This document shows, in pieces, positions 17,486 to 24,801 of a DNA stretch of 35,236 nt (position 1 is its first letter; each line of letters begins with the position of its first letter). The translations under genes and the position numbers were made by a program. The DNA lies in the NCBI RefSeq assembly GCF_902779965.1, contig NZ_CACZDK010000037.1, forward strand, positions 1-35,236, given 5' to 3'. This DNA comes from Fibrobacter succinogenes (GTDB taxonomy: Bacteria; Fibrobacterota; Fibrobacteria; Fibrobacterales; Fibrobacteraceae). A model generated the notes under the pieces. It saw nothing but the letters and a program-made list of their open reading frames with translations. It did not search any database and was not told the DNA's origin.

Positions 17486-17600
17486 GCTCGGTCATGTCAA
17501 AGTGCAAACGCTCTTTGACGCCTATGGCATTCGTGGCTGCGATTCGAAAATGCAAAAATAAGTTTTTGCGCTTTCTCGCCTTGCTCACTTTTGCCGCGAC
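17486..17600. repeat. Hairpin-rich dispersed intergenic repeat
   Basis: Two stem-loops stand out: GTCAAAG (17496-17502) with CTTTGAC (17513-17519), extended by an inner GC pair, and GCAAAAA with TTTTTGC around a TAAG loop near 17552-17570. Segments CTCGGTCAT and GGCTGC followed by GAAAATGCAA recur in the gap after clpC (24511-24536), so this is a dispersed family. No gene is seen in the gap between the LtaS-like gene and lysS. Confidence 0.6.
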
Positions 17601-17639
17601 TCTTGCCATTTGCTATCTTTACCCCGTTCAAATTTAAGA

Positions 17640-17657
17640 CGTGATTTATTCACGAGG
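17640..17657 (+). promoter_or_regulatory. Leader hairpin and ribosome binding site of lysS
   Basis: CGTGA and TCACG form a 5-bp hairpin (17640-17654) whose last base begins the GAGG ribosome binding site (17654-17657), nine bases before the ATG. The hairpin could modulate initiation. TATCTTTA about 30 bases upstream is a weak -7 box candidate. Confidence 0.45.
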
Positions 17658-17666
17658 TAAAACAAT

Positions 17667-19172
17667 ATGGCAATGCAAGATATGAATGACCAGGTGCAGG
17701 CTCGCTTGGCTAAGCTCGACAAGTTCAAGGAAATGGGTGTAGAGGCTTATCCTCACAAGTTTAACAGGACCCACGATTCCAAGGTTTTGAAGGAAAACAA
17801 GGAAGCCTTGATGGTGACGAAGGAACCGGTGGCATTTGCTGGCCGCGTGGTTCGTTTCAATCGCAAGGGCAAGATGTGCTTTATGCACTTGAAGGATCGT
17901 TATGGTCGCTTGCAGGTTGTCGTTGCCCGTGACGAGGTGGGCGAAGAAAACTACGAAATCGTGAAGATGACCGACCTCGGTGACTTCATTGGCGTGAACG
18001 GTACGATGTTCGAAACGCAGAGTGGTGAATACTCTGTGCGTGCCGAAAAGGTCACGATGCTTTCGAAGGCTGTGCGCCCGCTCCCGGTCGCTAAGGAAAA
18101 GATTGACGAAAACGGCAACAAGGTCGTGTTCAACGAATTTGCCGACGTCGATACTCGTTACCGCCAGCGTTACATCGACATGGCCCTGAACGACGACGTG
18201 AAGGAAGTCTTCATCAAGCGTTCCAAGATCATGCAGGCTATCCGCGAATACCTCATCGAAAAGGGATTCATCGAAGTCGAAACCCCGACGCTCCAGCCGA
18301 TTTACGGTGGTGCAAACGCCCGTCCGTTCACCACGCACCACAACGCTTGCGACATGACACTTTACTTGCGCGTTGCTCCGGAACTTTACCTCAAACGCTG
18401 CATCGTGGGCGGCATGGAAAAGGTTTTCGAATTCTCCAAGAACTTCCGCAACGAAGGCATGGACCGCACCCATAGCCCGGAATTCACCGGCCTCGAATTC
18501 TACGAAGCTTATGCCGACTACAACGACATGATGGTTCACTTCGAAAACATTTATGAACGCGCTTGCATTGCTGCAAATGGCACCACCAAGATTGAATATC
18601 AGGGCAAGGAAATCGACTTTAAGGCTCCGTGGCCGCGCTACAGCATGATCGAAGCTATCGAAAAGTTCGGCGGCCTCAAGGTGAACGAAATGAGCGATGA
18701 CGAAATCAAGGCCAAGATGGAAGAGCTGGGCGGTCACCTCGATGGCGAATTCTCTCGCGGTCGTGGCATTCTCGAACTCTTCGAATTGACTGTTGAAGAC
18801 AAGCTTATCCAGCCGACATTCATCAAGGACATGCCCACCGAAAGCACTCCGCTCTGCAAGAAGCACCGCACTATCGAAGGCCTTATCGAACAGTTCGAAC
18901 CGTATGCAAACGGCTGGGAACTCGGTAACGCTTACACCGAACTTAACGACCCGATCCGTCAGCGCGAACTTTTGGAAGACCAGGTCCGCCGTGGCCGCGG
19001 TGGTGAAGGTGAAACGCATCCGATGGATGAAAACTTCATGCATGCCATCGAATCTGGCTTGCCGCCGACGGGCGGCGTGGGCTTCGGCATCGACCGCATG
19101 GTCATGCTCCTCACGAACCAGCAGACCATTCGCGACGTGCAACTGTTCCCGCTCATGAAACCGGAAACGTAA
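17667..19172 (+). CDS. lysS: Lysyl-tRNA synthetase, class II
   Basis: It charges tRNA-Lys in the cytoplasm. The 501 residues fit bacterial LysS. An N-terminal OB-fold anticodon-binding domain (about 55-140, AFAGRVVRFNRKGKMCFMHL) precedes the class II core: motif 1 near 195-209 (IEVETPTLQP), motif 2 near 260-277 (FRNEGMDRTHSPEFTGLE) and motif 3 near the C-terminus (GVGFGIDRMVMLLT). The GGANARPFTTHHN region for lysine and ATP binding is intact. A GAGG site supports the start at 17667; the in-frame ATGs two and five codons later are less well placed. An 8-bp hairpin overlaps the stop codon. Confidence 0.98.
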   Translation: MAMQDMNDQVQARLAKLDKFKEMGVEAYPHKFNRTHDSKVLKENKEALMVTKEPVAFAGRVVRFNRKGKMCFMHLKDRYGRLQVVVARDEVGEENYEIVKMTDLGDFIGVNGTMFETQSGEYSVRAEKVTMLSKAVRPLPVAKEKIDENGNKVVFNEFADVDTRYRQRYIDMALNDDVKEVFIKRSKIMQAIREYLIEKGFIEVETPTLQPIYGGANARPFTTHHNACDMTLYLRVAPELYLKRCIVGGMEKVFEFSKNFRNEGMDRTHSPEFTGLEFYEAYADYNDMMVHFENIYERACIAANGTTKIEYQGKEIDFKAPWPRYSMIEAIEKFGGLKVNEMSDDEIKAKMEELGGHLDGEFSRGRGILELFELTVEDKLIQPTFIKDMPTESTPLCKKHRTIEGLIEQFEPYANGWELGNAYTELNDPIRQRELLEDQVRRGRGGEGETHPMDENFMHAIESGLPPTGGVGFGIDRMVMLLTNQQTIRDVQLFPLMKPET

Positions 19173-19186
19173 GGCGGAGCCTTACG
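19168..19186 (+). other. Perfect hairpin overlapping the lysS stop codon
   Basis: CGTAAGGC and GCCTTACG form an 8-bp stem around GGA, and the TAA stop lies inside the left arm. There is no T-tract after it; heptad repeats start four bases later. It may be a terminator remnant cut off by repeat insertion, or a 3'-end stabiliser. Confidence 0.6.
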
Positions 19187-19189
19187 GCT

Positions 19190-19641
19190 AGTAAACAGTG
19201 GTTAGTGGTTAGTAAACAGGAATGCATAAAGGAATGCAATGGCTCAAAGCTATAAAGATTTGGTAGTCTGGCAAAAAGCGATTGATCTGACCGTTGCGGT
19301 TTATCAATTGACGAAACAGTTTCCTAAAGAGGAATTGTTTGGACTAGTATCCCAAATGCGGCGAGCTTCTGTTTCTATAGCCAGTAATATTGCAGAAGGT
19401 GAAGGACGCAAGTCTAAAAAAGAGTTTGCTCATTTTTTAGGCATTTCCCTTGGATCAAAGGCTGAGTTAGAAACTCAATTGCTTTTGTGTGAGCGTGTTG
19501 GTTTAGCTAGTTCATCTGCAGTTTCTGAAATAAGAGATTCGTTGGATGAAATCGGAAAGATGCTTGCCATCTTAAAAATGCGACAAGACTCTCGTATTGT
19601 GATAAAACATCCCAACCACTAACCACCAACCACTAACCACT
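19190..19641. mobile_element. Putative element: four-helix-bundle gene between inverted heptad arrays (element D)
   Basis: The left arm at 19190-19217 is AGTAAAC, AGTGGTT, AGTGGTT, AGTAAAC. The right arm at 19614-19641 is AACCACT, AACCACC, AACCACT, AACCACT. AGTGGTT is the exact reverse complement of AACCACT, so the arms are terminal inverted repeats built of 7-mers. The only gene inside is the four-helix-bundle gene, and its last three codons and stop are encoded by the right arm. A near-identical left arm (AGTGGCT, AGTAAAC repeated, then AGG) without a gene occurs at 21744-21774. Mobility is inferred from this structure; no transposase is present. Confidence 0.6.
19239..19622 (+). CDS. Four-helix-bundle protein of the 23S rRNA intervening-sequence (S23/IVP, TIGR02436) family
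   Basis: 127 residues matching the family along its length: YKDLVVWQKAIDLTVAVY, then FPKEELFGLVSQMRRASVSI, ASNIAEGEGR, EFAHFLGISLGSKAELETQL. Members lie within 23S rRNA intervening sequences in Leptospira and Coxiella, are scattered as single genes in many genomes, and share their fold with the Avd protein of diversity-generating retroelements, a basic pentamer that binds nucleic acid. The biochemical role of the free-standing members is unknown. An AAGGA site lies five bases before the ATG. Its C-terminal PNH and stop codon are written by the first heptads of the right repeat arm. It sits between lysS and the Lol permease gene, unrelated in function to either. Confidence 0.9.
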   Translation: MAQSYKDLVVWQKAIDLTVAVYQLTKQFPKEELFGLVSQMRRASVSIASNIAEGEGRKSKKEFAHFLGISLGSKAELETQLLLCERVGLASSSAVSEIRDSLDEIGKMLAILKMRQDSRIVIKHPNH

Positions 19642-19663
19642 AAAATCTCGTCTTTCGTCTAAA

Positions 19664-20911
19664 ATGCAAAAACTCGAACTTCTCATCGCTTGGCGTTACT
19701 TGGGGGCTCAACGTAAGAGTCTCTTTGTTTCGCTTATTGGTATTTTCAGTATGCTCGGTGTTTCCATTGGCGTGTTTGCGTTGGTGGTGGCGCTTGCGGC
19801 GGTCAACGGTTTCGAAGAAGAGGTCACGGCCCAGATGATTGGGAAGGACGCTCACTTTGAACTGATGGCGTACAATGGCAATCCGATTGGTCCGTACGAT
19901 AGCCTCACGCAGGAAGTGCAAAAGCGCGTGCCTGATGTAGTCGCTTCGTCGCCGTTTATCATTTACAAGGTGGGCATCAGCTCCAAGAAGGTGAACGATG
20001 GCATTGTCATTTATGGCATTGATGATAAAACTGCCAAAGGCGTGACGGACATCCACAAGTATATCAAGTGGGGAAAGTACTCCGTTGATAGCCTCGAAGA
20101 CATGGGCGGTAAGCTCCGTCCGGGAATTATTCTCGGTACTGGCCTTGCGGCGCGTTTGCGCGTTGTCGTTGGTGACAAGCTTGTATTGCAGACGTTCCAG
20201 AGTCCGGACGAGGCGATGTCTGCGGGCGGCCCGAAGATGATGATGTGCGTGGTGAGCGGCATTTTTGAAACAGGCACTTACGAGTACGATGGCAACCTTG
20301 CGTATGTCGGCATTTCGGATTTGCAGAAGTTGCTCGGCATGGGAAACACCGTGACCGGCATCCAGTTCCGCATCAAGGATCATTGGAAAGCGGGCGAGGC
20401 GGTCGATAGCATGGCTACGTGGCTGTCTTATCCGTACTACGGGATGGATTGGAAGTCCAAGAACATCACGCTGCTCAAGTGGATGAATTACGAAAAGTTC
20501 ATTGTGGCGGCGGTGATTTGTTTGATTATCTTGGTCGCTGCATTCAACATCATCAGCTCCCTCATTATGGTGGTTATCGACAAAACGAAGGAAATCGGTA
20601 TCTTGCGCAGCATGGGCTTTAGCAAGGCGGGCGTGATGCGCGTGTTCATGCTGATGGGAAGTTTCATTGGCGTGGGCGGAACCGTTGTGGGTGGGACGAT
20701 TGGTCTTGTGCTTTGCAAGTTGCAAGAGGCTTACCACTTTATCAAGCTTCCGGGCGATGTTTACGTGATTCCATATTTCCCGATTTCTGTGCATGCGATT
20801 GATGTGATTTTGATTTTTGTCATTGGTATTGTACTTTGCGTGTCGGCAACGCTTTTGCCCGCATGGAAGGCTAGCCGCTTGGATCCCGTAGGAGCGATTA
20901 GACATGAATAA
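19664..20911 (+). CDS. Lipoprotein-releasing ABC transporter permease (LolC/LolE/LolF type)
   Basis: The 415-residue inner-membrane permease has the MacB/FtsX layout: one helix near 21-47, a large periplasmic domain to about 280, then three helices near 280-300, 322-345 and 380-402. The conserved coupling segment ISSLIMVVIDKTKEIGILRSMG is intact, and the C-terminus ends in the usual ARLDP-like ASRLDPVGAIRHE. With LolD it should extract outer-membrane lipoproteins from the inner membrane and pass them to LolA. Only one permease gene is present here, so a homodimer (LolF-like) or a second permease elsewhere is possible. No Shine-Dalgarno sequence precedes the ATG; the right arm of element D ends 22 bases upstream. 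lolD follows, after a 158-base repeat-filled gap. Confidence 0.93.
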   Translation: MQKLELLIAWRYLGAQRKSLFVSLIGIFSMLGVSIGVFALVVALAAVNGFEEEVTAQMIGKDAHFELMAYNGNPIGPYDSLTQEVQKRVPDVVASSPFIIYKVGISSKKVNDGIVIYGIDDKTAKGVTDIHKYIKWGKYSVDSLEDMGGKLRPGIILGTGLAARLRVVVGDKLVLQTFQSPDEAMSAGGPKMMMCVVSGIFETGTYEYDGNLAYVGISDLQKLLGMGNTVTGIQFRIKDHWKAGEAVDSMATWLSYPYYGMDWKSKNITLLKWMNYEKFIVAAVICLIILVAAFNIISSLIMVVIDKTKEIGILRSMGFSKAGVMRVFMLMGSFIGVGGTVVGGTIGLVLCKLQEAYHFIKLPGDVYVIPYFPISVHAIDVILIFVIGIVLCVSATLLPAWKASRLDPVGAIRHE

Positions 20912-20917
20912 TTTTTT

Positions 20918-21073
20918 AGTAGACGGTAGACAGTAGGAAGTAGACGGTTTTGCTATGTTCTATGCTGTTTTGTCATTAATAATTAGACCATTTTATGTCA
21001 AAAGGATTTTTAATATTTTGTTTTTTATTTTAAGCATCACTTCCTACTTCCTACTTCCTACTTCCTACTATGT
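20918..21073. repeat. Inverted heptad-array pair between permease gene and lolD (element E)
   Basis: The left arm at 20918-20952, starting seven bases after the permease stop, reads AGTAGAC, GGTAGAC, AGTAGGA, AGTAGAC, GGTTTTG. The right arm at 21039-21073 is four exact ACTTCCT units followed by ACTATGT, so the lolD start codon ATG (21070-21072) lies inside the fifth heptad. The left arm read on the other strand matches the right arm of element A at 1297-1327. The centre (20953-21038) is AT-rich with no gene and no strong hairpin; a lolD promoter could lie there. Confidence 0.85.
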
Positions 21074-21741
21074 CTAGTTTACTTCAAACCATCAATCTTC
21101 GGCGAGTCTTCTCCGAGACGGGTGAATCTCTTGAAATCCTGAAGGGCGTGAATTTTTCGATGGAAGCGGGGGAACTTGTGGCGCTCACGGGTTCTTCGGG
21201 TTCCGGTAAATCGACGTTCCTGAATTTGGTCGGAATGCTCGATACTCCGACTTCGGGCGAGATTTTATTCAACGGCAAACCGCTTAGCAAGTTCAATAGC
21301 GAAGAACGCGATATGTATCATCGGAAACATGTTGGGTTCGTTTTCCAGTTTCATCATTTGCTCACGGAATTTACGGCGTTGGAAAATGTCTGCGTGCCGG
21401 GCCGCATTCTCGGGACGCCCGAAAAGGAATGCCGCGAACGTGCTGAGATGCTTTTGGAAACGGTTGGTCTCAAAGATCGCCTCAAGCATTTGCCGCGAGA
21501 ACTTTCGGGCGGTGAACGCCAGCGAATTGCAATTGCGCGTGCGCTCATGAATAATCCGTCCCTTGTGTTTGCGGATGAACCGAGCGGAAACCTAGACGAA
21601 GCGAATTCGGCGAAGTTGAACGAACTCTTTGGCGAACTCAATGAAAAGTTCCATCAGGCGTTCTTGATTGTGACGCATGATGAAAAATTGGCACAGTTTG
21701 CAAAACGTCGAGTCGTCATGCATAACGGAGTGATTCAATAG
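21070..21741 (+). CDS. lolD: Lipoprotein-releasing system ATP-binding protein
   Basis: A 223-residue ABC ATPase that powers the adjacent permease at the inner face of the cytoplasmic membrane. Walker A is GSSGSGKST (41-49), the Q-loop is VFQFHHLL, the signature is LSGGERQRIAIARAL, Walker B is LVFADEPSGNLD, and the switch histidine is in IVTHDE. The sequence FQFHHLLTEFTALENV is typical of the LolD/MacB group. No Shine-Dalgarno sequence is possible, as perfect ACTTCCT heptads run straight into the ATG. Order and spacing suggest it was once in a tight operon with the permease, later opened by element E. Confidence 0.93.
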   Translation: MSSLLQTINLRRVFSETGESLEILKGVNFSMEAGELVALTGSSGSGKSTFLNLVGMLDTPTSGEILFNGKPLSKFNSEERDMYHRKHVGFVFQFHHLLTEFTALENVCVPGRILGTPEKECRERAEMLLETVGLKDRLKHLPRELSGGERQRIAIARALMNNPSLVFADEPSGNLDEANSAKLNELFGELNEKFHQAFLIVTHDEKLAQFAKRRVVMHNGVIQ

Positions 21742-21743
21742 TG

Positions 21744-21870
21744 AGTGGCTAGTAAACAGTGGCTAGTAAACAGGATTAGTTAGGCGGCTACGCCGCGATT
21801 ATAAAAAACTTCCTACTTCCTACTGCCTACATCCTACTAATCACTAACTACTAACCACTAATCACTATAG
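21744..21870. repeat. Inverted heptad-array pair with central GC hairpin (element F)
   Basis: The left arm at 21744-21771 begins three bases after the lolD stop: AGTGGCT, AGTAAAC, AGTGGCT, AGTAAAC, then AGG. A hairpin GCGGC-TAC-GCCGC lies at 21784-21796. The right arm at 21808-21870 is nine in-phase 7-mers, each beginning AC: for example ACTTCCT, ACTGCCT, ACATCCT, ACTAATC, ACTAACC. It contains both the TTCCTAC spelling of element E and the ACTAACC spelling of element D. It looks like a gene-less version of element D. Confidence 0.85.
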
Positions 21871-21913
21871 ATAAGTAACTATCTTTTGAGTGTGATAAGA
21901 GAATGAATAGGAG

Positions 21914-21938
21914 ATTCCCGCTCAGCGGCGGGAATGAC
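21914..21938. repeat. REP-like GTCATTCCCGC hairpin before clpC
   Basis: ATTCCCGC (21914-21921) pairs perfectly with GCGGGAAT (21928-21935) around TCAGCG, and TGAC follows. On the minus strand it begins GTCATTCCCGCC. It contains the ATG at 21934 that would extend the clpC frame by five codons, which argues against that start. Confidence 0.75.
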
Positions 21939-21948
21939 AAAAGCAATT

Positions 21949-24462
21949 ATGGCAGATATTAACGGTATTTTTTCAGCGAAGGCGAAGGCCGCTCTGCAAG
22001 CGGCTCGTATTGCGGCACGCAATTTAGGTAGCGATTGTGTGACGGTGGAACATCTGTTGTTTGGTCTTGTTCGTGAGGATTCTGGTGTTGCCTCCGAAAC
22101 ATTGAAAGCGCTTAAGGTCAACCTCACGGAGCTGAGCGAAACGATCCAGCGCGCGTTGAGTACGAATGGTGGCCTTATGACGGTCGGTGGCGATGCTCAC
22201 GGCGGTCTTTTGACGTTTACGGGGCAGTGCAAGGCAGTGCTTTACAATGCCGCTAAGATTGCCAAAGAAGAGGGCGTTCAGTTCATTGGTCCGGAACATT
22301 TGATGCTTGCTATTTTGCAACAGACTGATTCTCCGGCTGCGGCAACGCTTTCGACGTACAATGTGACGTTTGAAAATTATCAAGAAATGTTGATGCAAAT
22401 CAAGCGTCAGGCTGATGGTCAGCCGTTGGATGATGGTCAGTCCGAAGATGAACCGCGTGAACGTTATACGCAGACGCGTCAGGCTTCTCCGTCGCGCTCC
22501 AAGACTCCGATTCTGGAACATTTCGGTCGTGACCTTACAGCGATGGCTCGCGCTGGCAAACTTGATCCGATTATCGGTCGTGAAGCTGAAATTGAACGCT
22601 TGATCCAGATTCTGTGCCGTCGCAAAAAGAACAACCCGGCGCTCATCGGTGAACCGGGTGTGGGTAAGACCGCTATTATTGAAGGCCTTGCACTCAAGAT
22701 CGTGCAGCGCAAGATTCCGGACCTCTTGGCCAACAAGCGCGTAGTGACGCTCGATGTGGCTGCAATGGTTGCCGGTACAAAGTATCGTGGCCAGTTCGAA
22801 GAACGCGTGAAGGGCCTCATCATGGAACTCCAGCGCGTGGGCAATTCCGTGATTCTCTTCATTGACGAACTCCATACGATTGTAGGTGCTGGTGGCTCCG
22901 AAGGTAGCCTCGATGCATCGAATATCTTTAAGCCCGCTCTTGCTCGTGGCGAACTCCAGTGCATTGGCGCGACGACGTTTGATGAATACCGCAAGTATAT
23001 CGAAAAGGATGCTGCGCTCGAACGCCGTTTCCAGACGATTGTGGTAAACCCGCCGACGGTCGAAGATTCCATCCAGATTCTCGATGGCCTTCGCCCGAAG
23101 TATGAGCAACATCATAATGTTCATTACACGCCGGATGCCGTGCGTGCCGCTGTTGAATTAAGTGAACGTTACATCAGCGAGCGATTCTTGCCGGACAAGG
23201 CGATTGACGTGCTCGATGAAGCGGGCGCACGAGTTCGTTTGAATTCCATCAAGATTCCGCAAGACTTGCAGAACATGGAAGACGAACTCGGTGAATGTCT
23301 CCAGAAGAAAGAAGAAGCTGTTGCCAATCAGGATTATGCCTCTGCGGCGGACTATCGCGCCCGCGAAGAAGATTTGCAGAACTTGATTGCTGAACGCAAA
23401 AAGCAGTTGCAAAATGAAAATACGGAAACACCGATTGTCGATGATAACGTTATTCGTGATGTTATCAGCAAGATGACGGGAATCCCGGTTCGCAGGCTCG
23501 GTGGAGAAGAAGCGCAAAAGCTGATTCACCTTGGCGATGAAATCAAGCAGCACGTGATTGGTCAGGACCAAGCTGTTGATGCCATTGTGAAATCGATTCG
23601 CCGTAGCCGTGCTGGCATCCGCAACAACAAGCGCCCGATGGGCAGTTTCCTCTTCCTTGGCCCGACGGGTGTGGGTAAGACGGAACTTGCGAAGGTGCTT
23701 TGCAAGGAACTTTTCGGCAGTGAAGATTCGCTTGTGCGTATCGACATGAGCGAATACATGGAAAAGCATAGCGTGAGCCGCTTGATTGGTGCGCCTCCGG
23801 GATACGTAGGCTTTGAAGATGGCGGTGGTCAGCTCAGCGAAAAGGTGCGCAAGCATCCGTATTCTGTGGTGCTCTTGGATGAAATCGAAAAGGCGCATCC
23901 GGACATTTACAACTTGCTTCTCCAGATTTTGGACGATGGCATTTTGACGGATAGCTATGGCCGCAAAATTAACTTCAAGAATACGATTATTATCATGACG
24001 AGTAACGCCGGTGCTCGCGAAGTCCGCCATAGCAGTGGCATGGGCTTTACCAAAATGGGCGAGACGGATGATTACGAACGCATGGAAACTGCCATTCGCG
24101 AAGAAGTGAAGCGCGTGTTCTCTCCGGAATTCCTGAACCGTGTGGATGAGCAGATTGTGTTTCGCGCCCTCTCGAAAAAGGACCTCGTTTCTGTCGTGGA
24201 TATCCAGATGGGATTCTTGCAGAAGAATCTTTCGGACCGCGGAATCCTTTTGGAAATGAGCCAGGAAGCAAAGGAATTTGTAGTAAACCACAATTACGAT
24301 GCTTCGTTGGGTGCACGTCCGATCCGCCGCTCCATCCAGAATCTGGTGGAAGACGAAATCGCTGAAGGCCTTTTGCTCGGGACGATGACGGACTTCTCCA
24401 CAATTTACGTGGGCGTCGAAGACGGCAAGCTGTCTTTTAAATGCGAGAAAATACAATCGTAG
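21949..24462 (+). CDS. clpC: ClpC-type AAA+ chaperone/protease ATPase subunit
   Basis: An 837-residue Hsp100 protein that unfolds substrates, usually for ClpP. In order: two Clp_N repeats (1-150), a linker, AAA domain 1 with Walker A GEPGVGKT (234-241) and Walker B VILFIDELHT, a short middle domain with the UVR-type motif NQDYASAADYRAREEDL, AAA domain 2 with GPTGVGKT (about 569-576) and VVLLDEIEKAHPD, and a C-terminal ClpB_D2-small region. The short UVR middle domain indicates ClpC rather than ClpB. The ClpP-docking loop would be SSGMGFTKMG, with MGF in place of the common LGF or VGF. I chose ATG 21949 because the upstream in-frame ATG lies in a REP-like hairpin. No Shine-Dalgarno sequence is visible. 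No adaptor gene adjoins it. Confidence 0.93.
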   Translation: MADINGIFSAKAKAALQAARIAARNLGSDCVTVEHLLFGLVREDSGVASETLKALKVNLTELSETIQRALSTNGGLMTVGGDAHGGLLTFTGQCKAVLYNAAKIAKEEGVQFIGPEHLMLAILQQTDSPAAATLSTYNVTFENYQEMLMQIKRQADGQPLDDGQSEDEPRERYTQTRQASPSRSKTPILEHFGRDLTAMARAGKLDPIIGREAEIERLIQILCRRKKNNPALIGEPGVGKTAIIEGLALKIVQRKIPDLLANKRVVTLDVAAMVAGTKYRGQFEERVKGLIMELQRVGNSVILFIDELHTIVGAGGSEGSLDASNIFKPALARGELQCIGATTFDEYRKYIEKDAALERRFQTIVVNPPTVEDSIQILDGLRPKYEQHHNVHYTPDAVRAAVELSERYISERFLPDKAIDVLDEAGARVRLNSIKIPQDLQNMEDELGECLQKKEEAVANQDYASAADYRAREEDLQNLIAERKKQLQNENTETPIVDDNVIRDVISKMTGIPVRRLGGEEAQKLIHLGDEIKQHVIGQDQAVDAIVKSIRRSRAGIRNNKRPMGSFLFLGPTGVGKTELAKVLCKELFGSEDSLVRIDMSEYMEKHSVSRLIGAPPGYVGFEDGGGQLSEKVRKHPYSVVLLDEIEKAHPDIYNLLLQILDDGILTDSYGRKINFKNTIIIMTSNAGAREVRHSSGMGFTKMGETDDYERMETAIREEVKRVFSPEFLNRVDEQIVFRALSKKDLVSVVDIQMGFLQKNLSDRGILLEMSQEAKEFVVNHNYDASLGARPIRRSIQNLVEDEIAEGLLLGTMTDFSTIYVGVEDGKLSFKCEKIQS

Positions 24463-24672
24463 AGCTATGGGCACGGAGCTAAAGCTCCTTTGACGCTTCC
24501 AGCGTCCGCGGCTGCACTCGGTCATAGAAAATGCAAGCATTTTCTGCGACACTCGTTTTGCACGCTATTGAGCACGCTTCGCTTTGGGCTATGAGGTCGC
24601 CTTGTTTTGCAAGGCTTTGGGCATTTCTTATTACAATTGCCCATACCTCAAAGGGGCGCAAGCCCCGAGCTC
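24463..24672. repeat. Cluster of stem-loops downstream of clpC
   Basis: No gene is seen, but stems follow each other: GGAGCT with AGCTCC (24475-24488), GACGCT with AGCGTC (24492-24506), GAAAATGC with GCATTTTC (24527-24544), CCTTG with CAAGG (24600-24614), TGGGCA with TGCCCA (24618-24643), and GGGGC with GCCCC around a GCAA tetraloop (24653-24666). None has a proper T-tract. The stretch 24511-24560 resembles 17486-17590. GGGCTATGAGGTCG at 24587-24600 is a left-type partner of the ATACCTC heptads that follow. Confidence 0.7.
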
Positions 24673-24754
24673 ATACCTCATACCCCACATCCCATACTCC
24701 ATAGCTGAAAAGCGTCTTTTTCGACGTTCTAAGCTCTAAGTTCTAGGTTCTAAA
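24673..24754. repeat. Two heptad arrays upstream of adk (ATACCyC and TTCTAAG types)
   Basis: At 24673-24707 five in-phase 7-mers read ATACCTC, ATACCCC, ACATCCC, ATACTCC, ATAGCTG. At 24727-24754 four more read TTCTAAG, CTCTAAG, TTCTAGG, TTCTAAA, ending four bases before the adk promoter box. The TTCTAAG spelling occurs only here in the window. The period is 7 in both arrays although the sequences differ. Confidence 0.8.
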
Positions 24755-24757
24755 AGC

Positions 24758-24765
24758 TATATTTG
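24758..24765 (+). promoter_or_regulatory. Putative -7 promoter box of adk
   Basis: TATATTTG, followed by CCTCGG, sits 36 bases before the adk ATG at 24802. No -33 TTTG is visible; the heptad array occupies that position, as it does upstream of leuC. Confidence 0.55.
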
Positions 24766-24801
24766 CCTCGGAATTTTAACAATCAACCTATGAGGTTATC
24801 A

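Follow-up and report, generated by a model that had tools for sequence, protein, structure and literature searches.

Background

Miniature inverted-repeat transposable elements (MITEs) are short and gene-less, and have inverted ends in common with a gene-bearing element. The present work concerns a 35,236-nucleotide stretch of Fibrobacter succinogenes DNA (the window, in what follows; contig NZ_CACZDK010000037.1, forward strand) and, within it, a gene-less element at 21742-21870 whose arms, arrays of seven-nucleotide units (heptads), are also those of an element at 19190-19643 that carries a gene of the IVP/S23 four-helix-bundle family. Here, I argue that both belong to an IVP-linked family of small inverted-heptad elements whose gene-less members probably depend on IVP in trans, a reading to which I give a probability of about 0.6. 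The copies share their ends, are dispersed between genes, occupy gaps that are empty or otherwise filled in relatives, and lie mostly in sense orientation. The element at 21742-21870 is an ordinary member, and it is the family that deserves the attention.

Two of the closest described systems have been known separately. The 23S rRNA intervening sequence (IVS) of Coxiella burnetii is described as having two to three tandem heptamers, variable between strains, right before the start codon of S23p; in the same account the S23p protein is a homopentameric ring and S23/IVP proteins are said to have no known function (PMC4990558). Heptamer arrays, in turn, are described with the spelling TAACTGA in Beggiatoaceae, cyanobacteria and Bacteroidetes (PMC4679880) and with the spelling GGGAATC in Xanthomonas, where 70 and 75 inverted pairs are given for two genomes (PMC4692102); both accounts leave the origin of the arrays open, and their main texts contain no occurrence of 'four helix' or 'helix bundle'. 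Among the open PubMed Central papers searched, no text was found to tie IVP genes to heptad arrays beyond the Coxiella IVS paper. Arrays and S23 intervening sequences are already known, and the link of intergenic inverted heptad arrays to IVP genes is made here.

The locus resembles these and other systems in part. It shares with the 23S rRNA IVS the protein family and, in the gene-bearing element, a single small S23/IVP open reading frame (ORF) placed between inverted repeats, in the loop of the stem that they form; the elements here, however, stand between protein genes, outside an rRNA helix, and gene-less copies are abundant. Tandem 7-nt units, by which simple heptamer repeat arrays are recognised, are present, and the likeness to the arrays in the accounts cited extends to their intergenic position, to some inverted pairs and to indels in 7-nt steps. 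The numerous short hairpins, scattered between genes, and the small number of linked genes in each genome recall REPIN/RAYT, yet the linked gene is an IVP rather than an HUH tyrosine transposase, and the arms are heptad arrays of variable spelling. Several traits of a MITE are found in the gene-less element (terminal inverted repeats, small size, no coding sequence, multiple copies), and its inverted ends are as in the gene-bearing form, but that form carries PF05635 and no transposase, and no target duplication was noticed by eye. A diversity-generating retroelement (DGR), finally, differs in that the element holds no reverse transcriptase, the one RVT_1 match in the genome being on another contig.

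The gene-less and the gene-bearing element

The two elements are made up as follows.

21742-21870, forward strand: gene-less inverted-heptad element, included in a 17-copy alignment (profile score 125.6, this copy being itself among the 17 from which the profile was built)
21744-21773, forward strand: left arm of AGTGGCT/AGTAAAC heptads (AGTGGCT, AGTAAAC, AGTGGCT, AGTAAAC), then AGG
21784-21796, forward strand: core hairpin within a conserved core, GCGGC at 21784-21788, loop TAC, GCCGC at 21792-21796
21808-21867, forward strand: right arm, TTCCTAC-type inside, ACTAACC/ACTAATC heptads outside
19190-19219, forward strand: left arm of the IVP-bearing element, AGTAAAC, AGTGGTT, AGTGGTT, AGTAAAC, AG, then GAAT
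19239-19622, forward strand: IVP/S23 four-helix-bundle gene of 127 aa, its stop codon inside the right arm
19614-19643, forward strand: right arm of the IVP-bearing element

The gene-less element has heptad arrays for its two arms, the right one inverted, with a short hairpin between them, as the sequence-only reading had described it. It begins directly past the stop codon TAG (21739-21741) of a gene that I take, from its protein, to be lolD, and is followed by what is presumably clpC, whose longest ORF runs from 21934 and whose conserved start is at 21949. The gene-bearing element occupies the gap between two genes likewise taken from their proteins to be lysS and lolC. Its product matches PF05635 23S_rRNA_IVP (E 8.7e-41) and TIGR02436 four helix bundle protein, and two PDB entries, with five chains in each, match it by sequence; it is the one IVP gene found in its genome (97% complete).

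The left arms of the two elements are identical at 20 of 21 positions (one mismatch, alignment score 19), against a best score of 18 in 5000 random 35-nt heptad arrays; the right arms are identical at 25 of 29 (four mismatches, score 21), the random control having been run for left arms only. Both arms are common to the two copies, and so is their polarity. The near-equality of the left arms and the presence of the ACTAACC unit of the gene-bearing copy in the right arm, both noticed at the outset, are borne out, and with them the observation of a gene-less element that has the arms of the IVP element. Yet of 36 heptad arrays in 400 kb of this genome, taken in either orientation and with flanks of 40 nt on both sides, seven equalled or beat the left score and seven the right score, so that the likeness, which exceeds that of random heptad arrays, is not peculiar to this pair and marks a genome-wide family. 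A strict two-ended pattern was set aside; it gave 2 left ends in the window, 0-2 per genome sample and 1 in shuffled sequence of the same genome.

The sequence-only reading had compared the two copies, 2 kb apart, to a non-autonomous MITE and its autonomous parent. The shared ends sustain part of this analogy, as do two short copies (L220 and L224) in which part of the sequence is still similar to the IVP leader (CAGGAATGTAAAAGGAAC in L220, CAGGAATGCATAAAGGAATG in the IVP leader), the outcome expected of an internal deletion. Descent from the neighbour, on the other hand, is not supported, for two sister genomes separate the pair: G075 shares this gene-less element, but the IVP in its lysS-lolC gap is of class B and has GACGAAA arms, and G069 has an identical IVP (100% over 127 residues), yet a different element in the lolD-clpC gap. 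The label of autonomous transposon finds no support either, the only gene of the IVP element being PF05635, which is not a known transposase. The element at 21742-21870 is a member of the family and not the offspring of the neighbouring IVP element.

Copies in the genome and the genus

At E<=10, a 221-base query gave 71 match rows in its own genome, and many of these are single arms. Six of the seven next-best places after the query itself have an arm, a GAATAGTTAGGCGGC-like core with hairpin, a ATTATAAAA-like stretch and an inverse arm, although one of the six has hardly any left arm; in the copy L006, other sequence stands in place of half of the hairpin. An alignment along the core was obtained for 17 copies, drawn from 11 genomes, and 49 of 61 sampled genomes of the genus have a match to a copy. 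There are 1-36 lag-7 arrays per genome sample, none at lags 5 and 8, and at most 4 at lags 6, 9, 10, 11 and 13. This amounts to 14-127 lag-7 arrays per Mb in the sampled stretches of 11 genomes, among which IVP-less genomes are represented by 60 kb of a single genome. An inverted partner accompanies 43 of 132 sampled arrays, against 9 at random positions; a direct partner accompanies 16, against 20 at random, a count given little weight, for random positions can land near an array and this control is probably inflated.

The two gaps were followed through 30 loci each. Between lolD and clpC, nine loci are filled, with five spellings, 19 are short and without arrays, and two (L094 and L097) are unread; 22 of the 30 were displayed and seven others judged by eye. 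Between lysS and lolC, an IVP of class A is found at ten loci, of class B at nine and of class C at three, seven have no IVP and one is cut by a contig end, the arms being spelled in AGT heptads (AGTGGTT, AGTAGGA) in class A, GACGAGA in class B and GAGGTAT in class C. Two further observations concern the lolD-clpC gap. The sister genomes G000 and G075 differ by one 7-nt unit in the right arm, at 21808-21830. The locus L077 (genome G008) holds an AGGT-type element with the GCGGC core reversed and an AGTGGTT-type outer right arm, an arrangement that looks as if elements nest or replace one another.

Replication slippage at intergenic sites might produce heptad arrays among which IVP genes or hairpins merely happen to lie. 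Arrays that differ in 7-nt steps, as in G000 and G075, are what it would leave, and it has been proposed for heptamer repeats, which are described as widespread (PMC4679880). It does not readily account for arms that are inverted and spelled alike on the two sides of a gene, for a non-heptad core conserved in copies at separate sites, or for the tie to one protein family across phyla set out below, and I regard it as a distinctly unlikely origin of the elements.

IVP genes between heptad arrays in many phyla

Species genomes were scanned with an IVP alignment, which gave 591 relatives; the best 80 were taken, and these belong to many phyla (labels assigned from record titles). The scan began from IVP and cannot tell whether other genes sit between such arms. 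The best lag-7 identity in the IVP flanks (best 28-nt window within 160 nt per side, 79 of the 80 loci used on each side) is 0.664 upstream and 0.605 downstream, the corresponding value for 936 control windows being 0.418; the prominent lags are 7 and its multiple 14, and lag 8 is slightly so. Of the 80 IVP loci, 50 have an array on one side or both, against 54 of 943 control pairs; they comprise 12 of 14 loci in Bacillota, 19 of 31 in Bacteroidota, 3 of 3 in Acidobacteriota and 3 of 10 in Patescibacteria, in addition to others.

The arms of one element resemble each other, in inverted orientation, far more than those of different elements. Of 116 IVP loci, 112 were used (L028, L074, L192 and L194 were left out), and the likeness was measured on the 48 with both arms above threshold: among the 13 elements from this phylum it is 0.31 within and 0.053 between elements, and among the 35 from other phyla 0.364 and 0.026, a difference reached by 0 of 2000 permutations in each set. 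In direct orientation, the likeness within one element is 0.005 and 0.068, respectively.

Plasmids yielded 33 IVP records; the five cyanobacterial ones inspected by eye all have inverted arms. Among phages, no IVP match was found. On the Anabaena plasmid pANA02 (L339, 1492-1860), an IVP element with inverted heptad arms has cas6 on one side and cas4 on the other, within a type I-D CRISPR locus, and on the Nostoc plasmid pNe_5 (L335, 1489-1857) an IVP element lies antisense between two ribonucleotide reductase genes.

Array numbers and the presence of IVP

An IVP was found in 53 of 80 genomes of the genus. For exact matches to the AGTGGTT-type pattern, overlapping ones included, the median is 38 in the 17 genomes that have the cognate class, 18 in the 15 where only class B is found, 4 in the 21 that have other IVPs and 0 in the 27 that have none; long arrays are counted several times.

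These numbers bear on two rivals that assign the movement to another enzyme. The arrays may be REPIN-like and moved by an unlinked tyrosine (HUH) transposase, the IVP being a passenger; hairpins scattered between genes, together with a low copy number of the gene in each genome, do resemble REPIN/RAYT as described in PMC3116915 and PMC3733652. This account appears quite improbable, for IVP-less genomes have fewer AGTGGTT-type matches and no transposase lies between the arms here, although unlinked transposases were not searched for. Alternatively, a reverse transcriptase may copy the element RNA while the IVP acts like its DGR relative Avd. The IVP is a distant relative of Avd (E 5.5e-7 to the bAvd model and 1.7e-8 to DivGenRetAVD, both below the curated cut-offs), and the sense orientation reported below would suit an RNA step; RVT_1, however, was matched in only 18 of the 80 genomes of the genus, and among the 53 that have an IVP, 38 gave no match, including G060 (99% complete, 70 pattern matches) and G039 (100%, 27). 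This alternative is very improbable, and a reverse transcriptase is unlikely to be needed as the mover.

Orientation and RNA folding

Genes were called with a codon model trained on 396 long ORFs, or with a residue model for other phyla; a longest-ORF caller was dropped, as it had mis-called the known lolD/clpC site. Where the neighbouring genes are co-directional, the IVP elements of this phylum (35 loci, several of which share one site) are sense in 28 cases and antisense in none, the remainder being convergent (2), far (3) or missing (2); those of other phyla (80 loci) are 52 sense and 1 antisense, with 5 convergent, 3 divergent, 13 far and 6 missing. The gene-less copies (30 of 38 loci, leaving out L062-L068 and L039, the same place as L002) are 22 sense and 1 antisense, these 23 representing 17 separate sites, with 3 convergent, 2 divergent and 2 far. 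When the sampled stretches and the window were searched with the profile, 18 of 30 gene-less copies proved to be sense and 4 antisense (2 convergent, 2 divergent, 3 far, 1 at an edge), the four antisense copies scoring 26.7-49.5.

Folding z-scores are -2.4 to -5.5 for five gene-less copies and -4.8 for the IVP element, and an RNA stem formed by the arms fits the stem of rRNA intervening sequences, without proving an RNA step.

The same evidence would suit fixed regulatory RNA hairpins of operons, serving processing or translational insulation, spread by recombination and kept by selection: the elements are mostly between co-directional genes, often by stop codons, mostly sense, and foldable. 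Such hairpins would hardly be expected, on the other hand, in a gap that is empty or holds unrelated spellings in close relatives, and Rfam has no match across positions 17600-24800. As a general account, they are unlikely.

Weighing the reading

On the reading preferred here, that of an IVP-linked family, the element would be a unit entering the gaps of operons. As RNA, its arms may pair to form a stem like that of 23S rRNA intervening sequences; the heptad arms, in the form of single-stranded RNA or DNA, would be bound by the IVP ring; gene-less copies would rely on the IVP protein in trans; and the moving activity would be supplied by the host or is yet to be found.

A number of observations weigh against it. 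No movement has been observed, no target duplication was noticed by eye in the gaps read, and the ends of the elements are undefined to the base. The element contains no transposase or nuclease, its sole gene being PF05635, which is not a known transposase. Four of the seven IVP-less lysS-lolC gaps (G001, G043, G046 and G047) keep TCTCGTC-like remnants, so that losses are possible there, rather than sites that were never filled. Among the 112 IVP elements, 23 have no array on either side at threshold and 41 have one on one side only. The identity of IVPs is uncorrelated with arm spelling between loci (Spearman 0.03, 661 pairs), even though the 12 between-locus pairs at >=65% IVP identity share more spelling (0.153 and 0.277, against about 0.05).

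The comparison of array numbers with IVP presence is uncorrected for relatedness, and for the GACGAGA pattern the tie is weak, the medians being 35 with class B and 25 where only class A is found (p=0.15), and 12 and 4 in the remaining two groups; G028 (83% complete) has no IVP found, yet 47 AGTGGTT-type matches. As to orientation, ordinary genes between co-directional neighbours are also sense in 88% of cases (678/772); the orientation of IVP elements is therefore weakly special and proves little alone, and it is the gene-less result that is informative. With the cruder longest-ORF caller, the sense fractions are 5/9 for gene-less copies and 7/12 for IVP elements of this phylum, which amounts to no bias in either, and 30/39 for those of other phyla. 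Of the five IVPs annotated on plasmids, two are antisense with respect to both adjacent genes.

Other features near the elements

A further feature lies between the two elements.

20917-21070, no strand assigned: second gene-less inverted pair, in the lolC-lolD gap, of AGTAGAC/TTCCTAC spelling (arms 20917-20954 and 21033-21070, 74% complementary)

A small palindrome, CGTAAGGCGGAGCCTTACG, at 19168-19186 spans the lysS stop codon just 5' of the IVP left arm; similar gene-end hairpins occur at several filled lysS-lolC sites and were not noticed at the seven IVP-less gaps. Between the gene-less element and clpC lies a short palindrome, TTCCCGCTCAGCGGCGGGAATGACA, at 21910-21939, and TTCCCGC/GCGGGAATGAC stretches resembling it flank two arrays elsewhere in the genome. 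Downstream of clpC, a TTCTAAG-type heptad array is found at 24724-24753.

Conclusions

A wider proposal may be put forward tentatively, at less than even odds: IVP/S23 genes and inverted heptad arrays may form a bacteria-wide mobile class without transposase, in which the pentameric ring would read or lay down 7-nt units, and rRNA intervening sequences, the heptamer arrays of cyanobacteria, Xanthomonas and Beggiatoaceae, and the gene-less copies would belong to a single system entering transcripts in sense orientation. The tie between IVP genes and arrays, with the number of gene-less copies following the presence of the gene, offers a direct test of IVP function, and it could add a transposase-free type to the known mobile elements.
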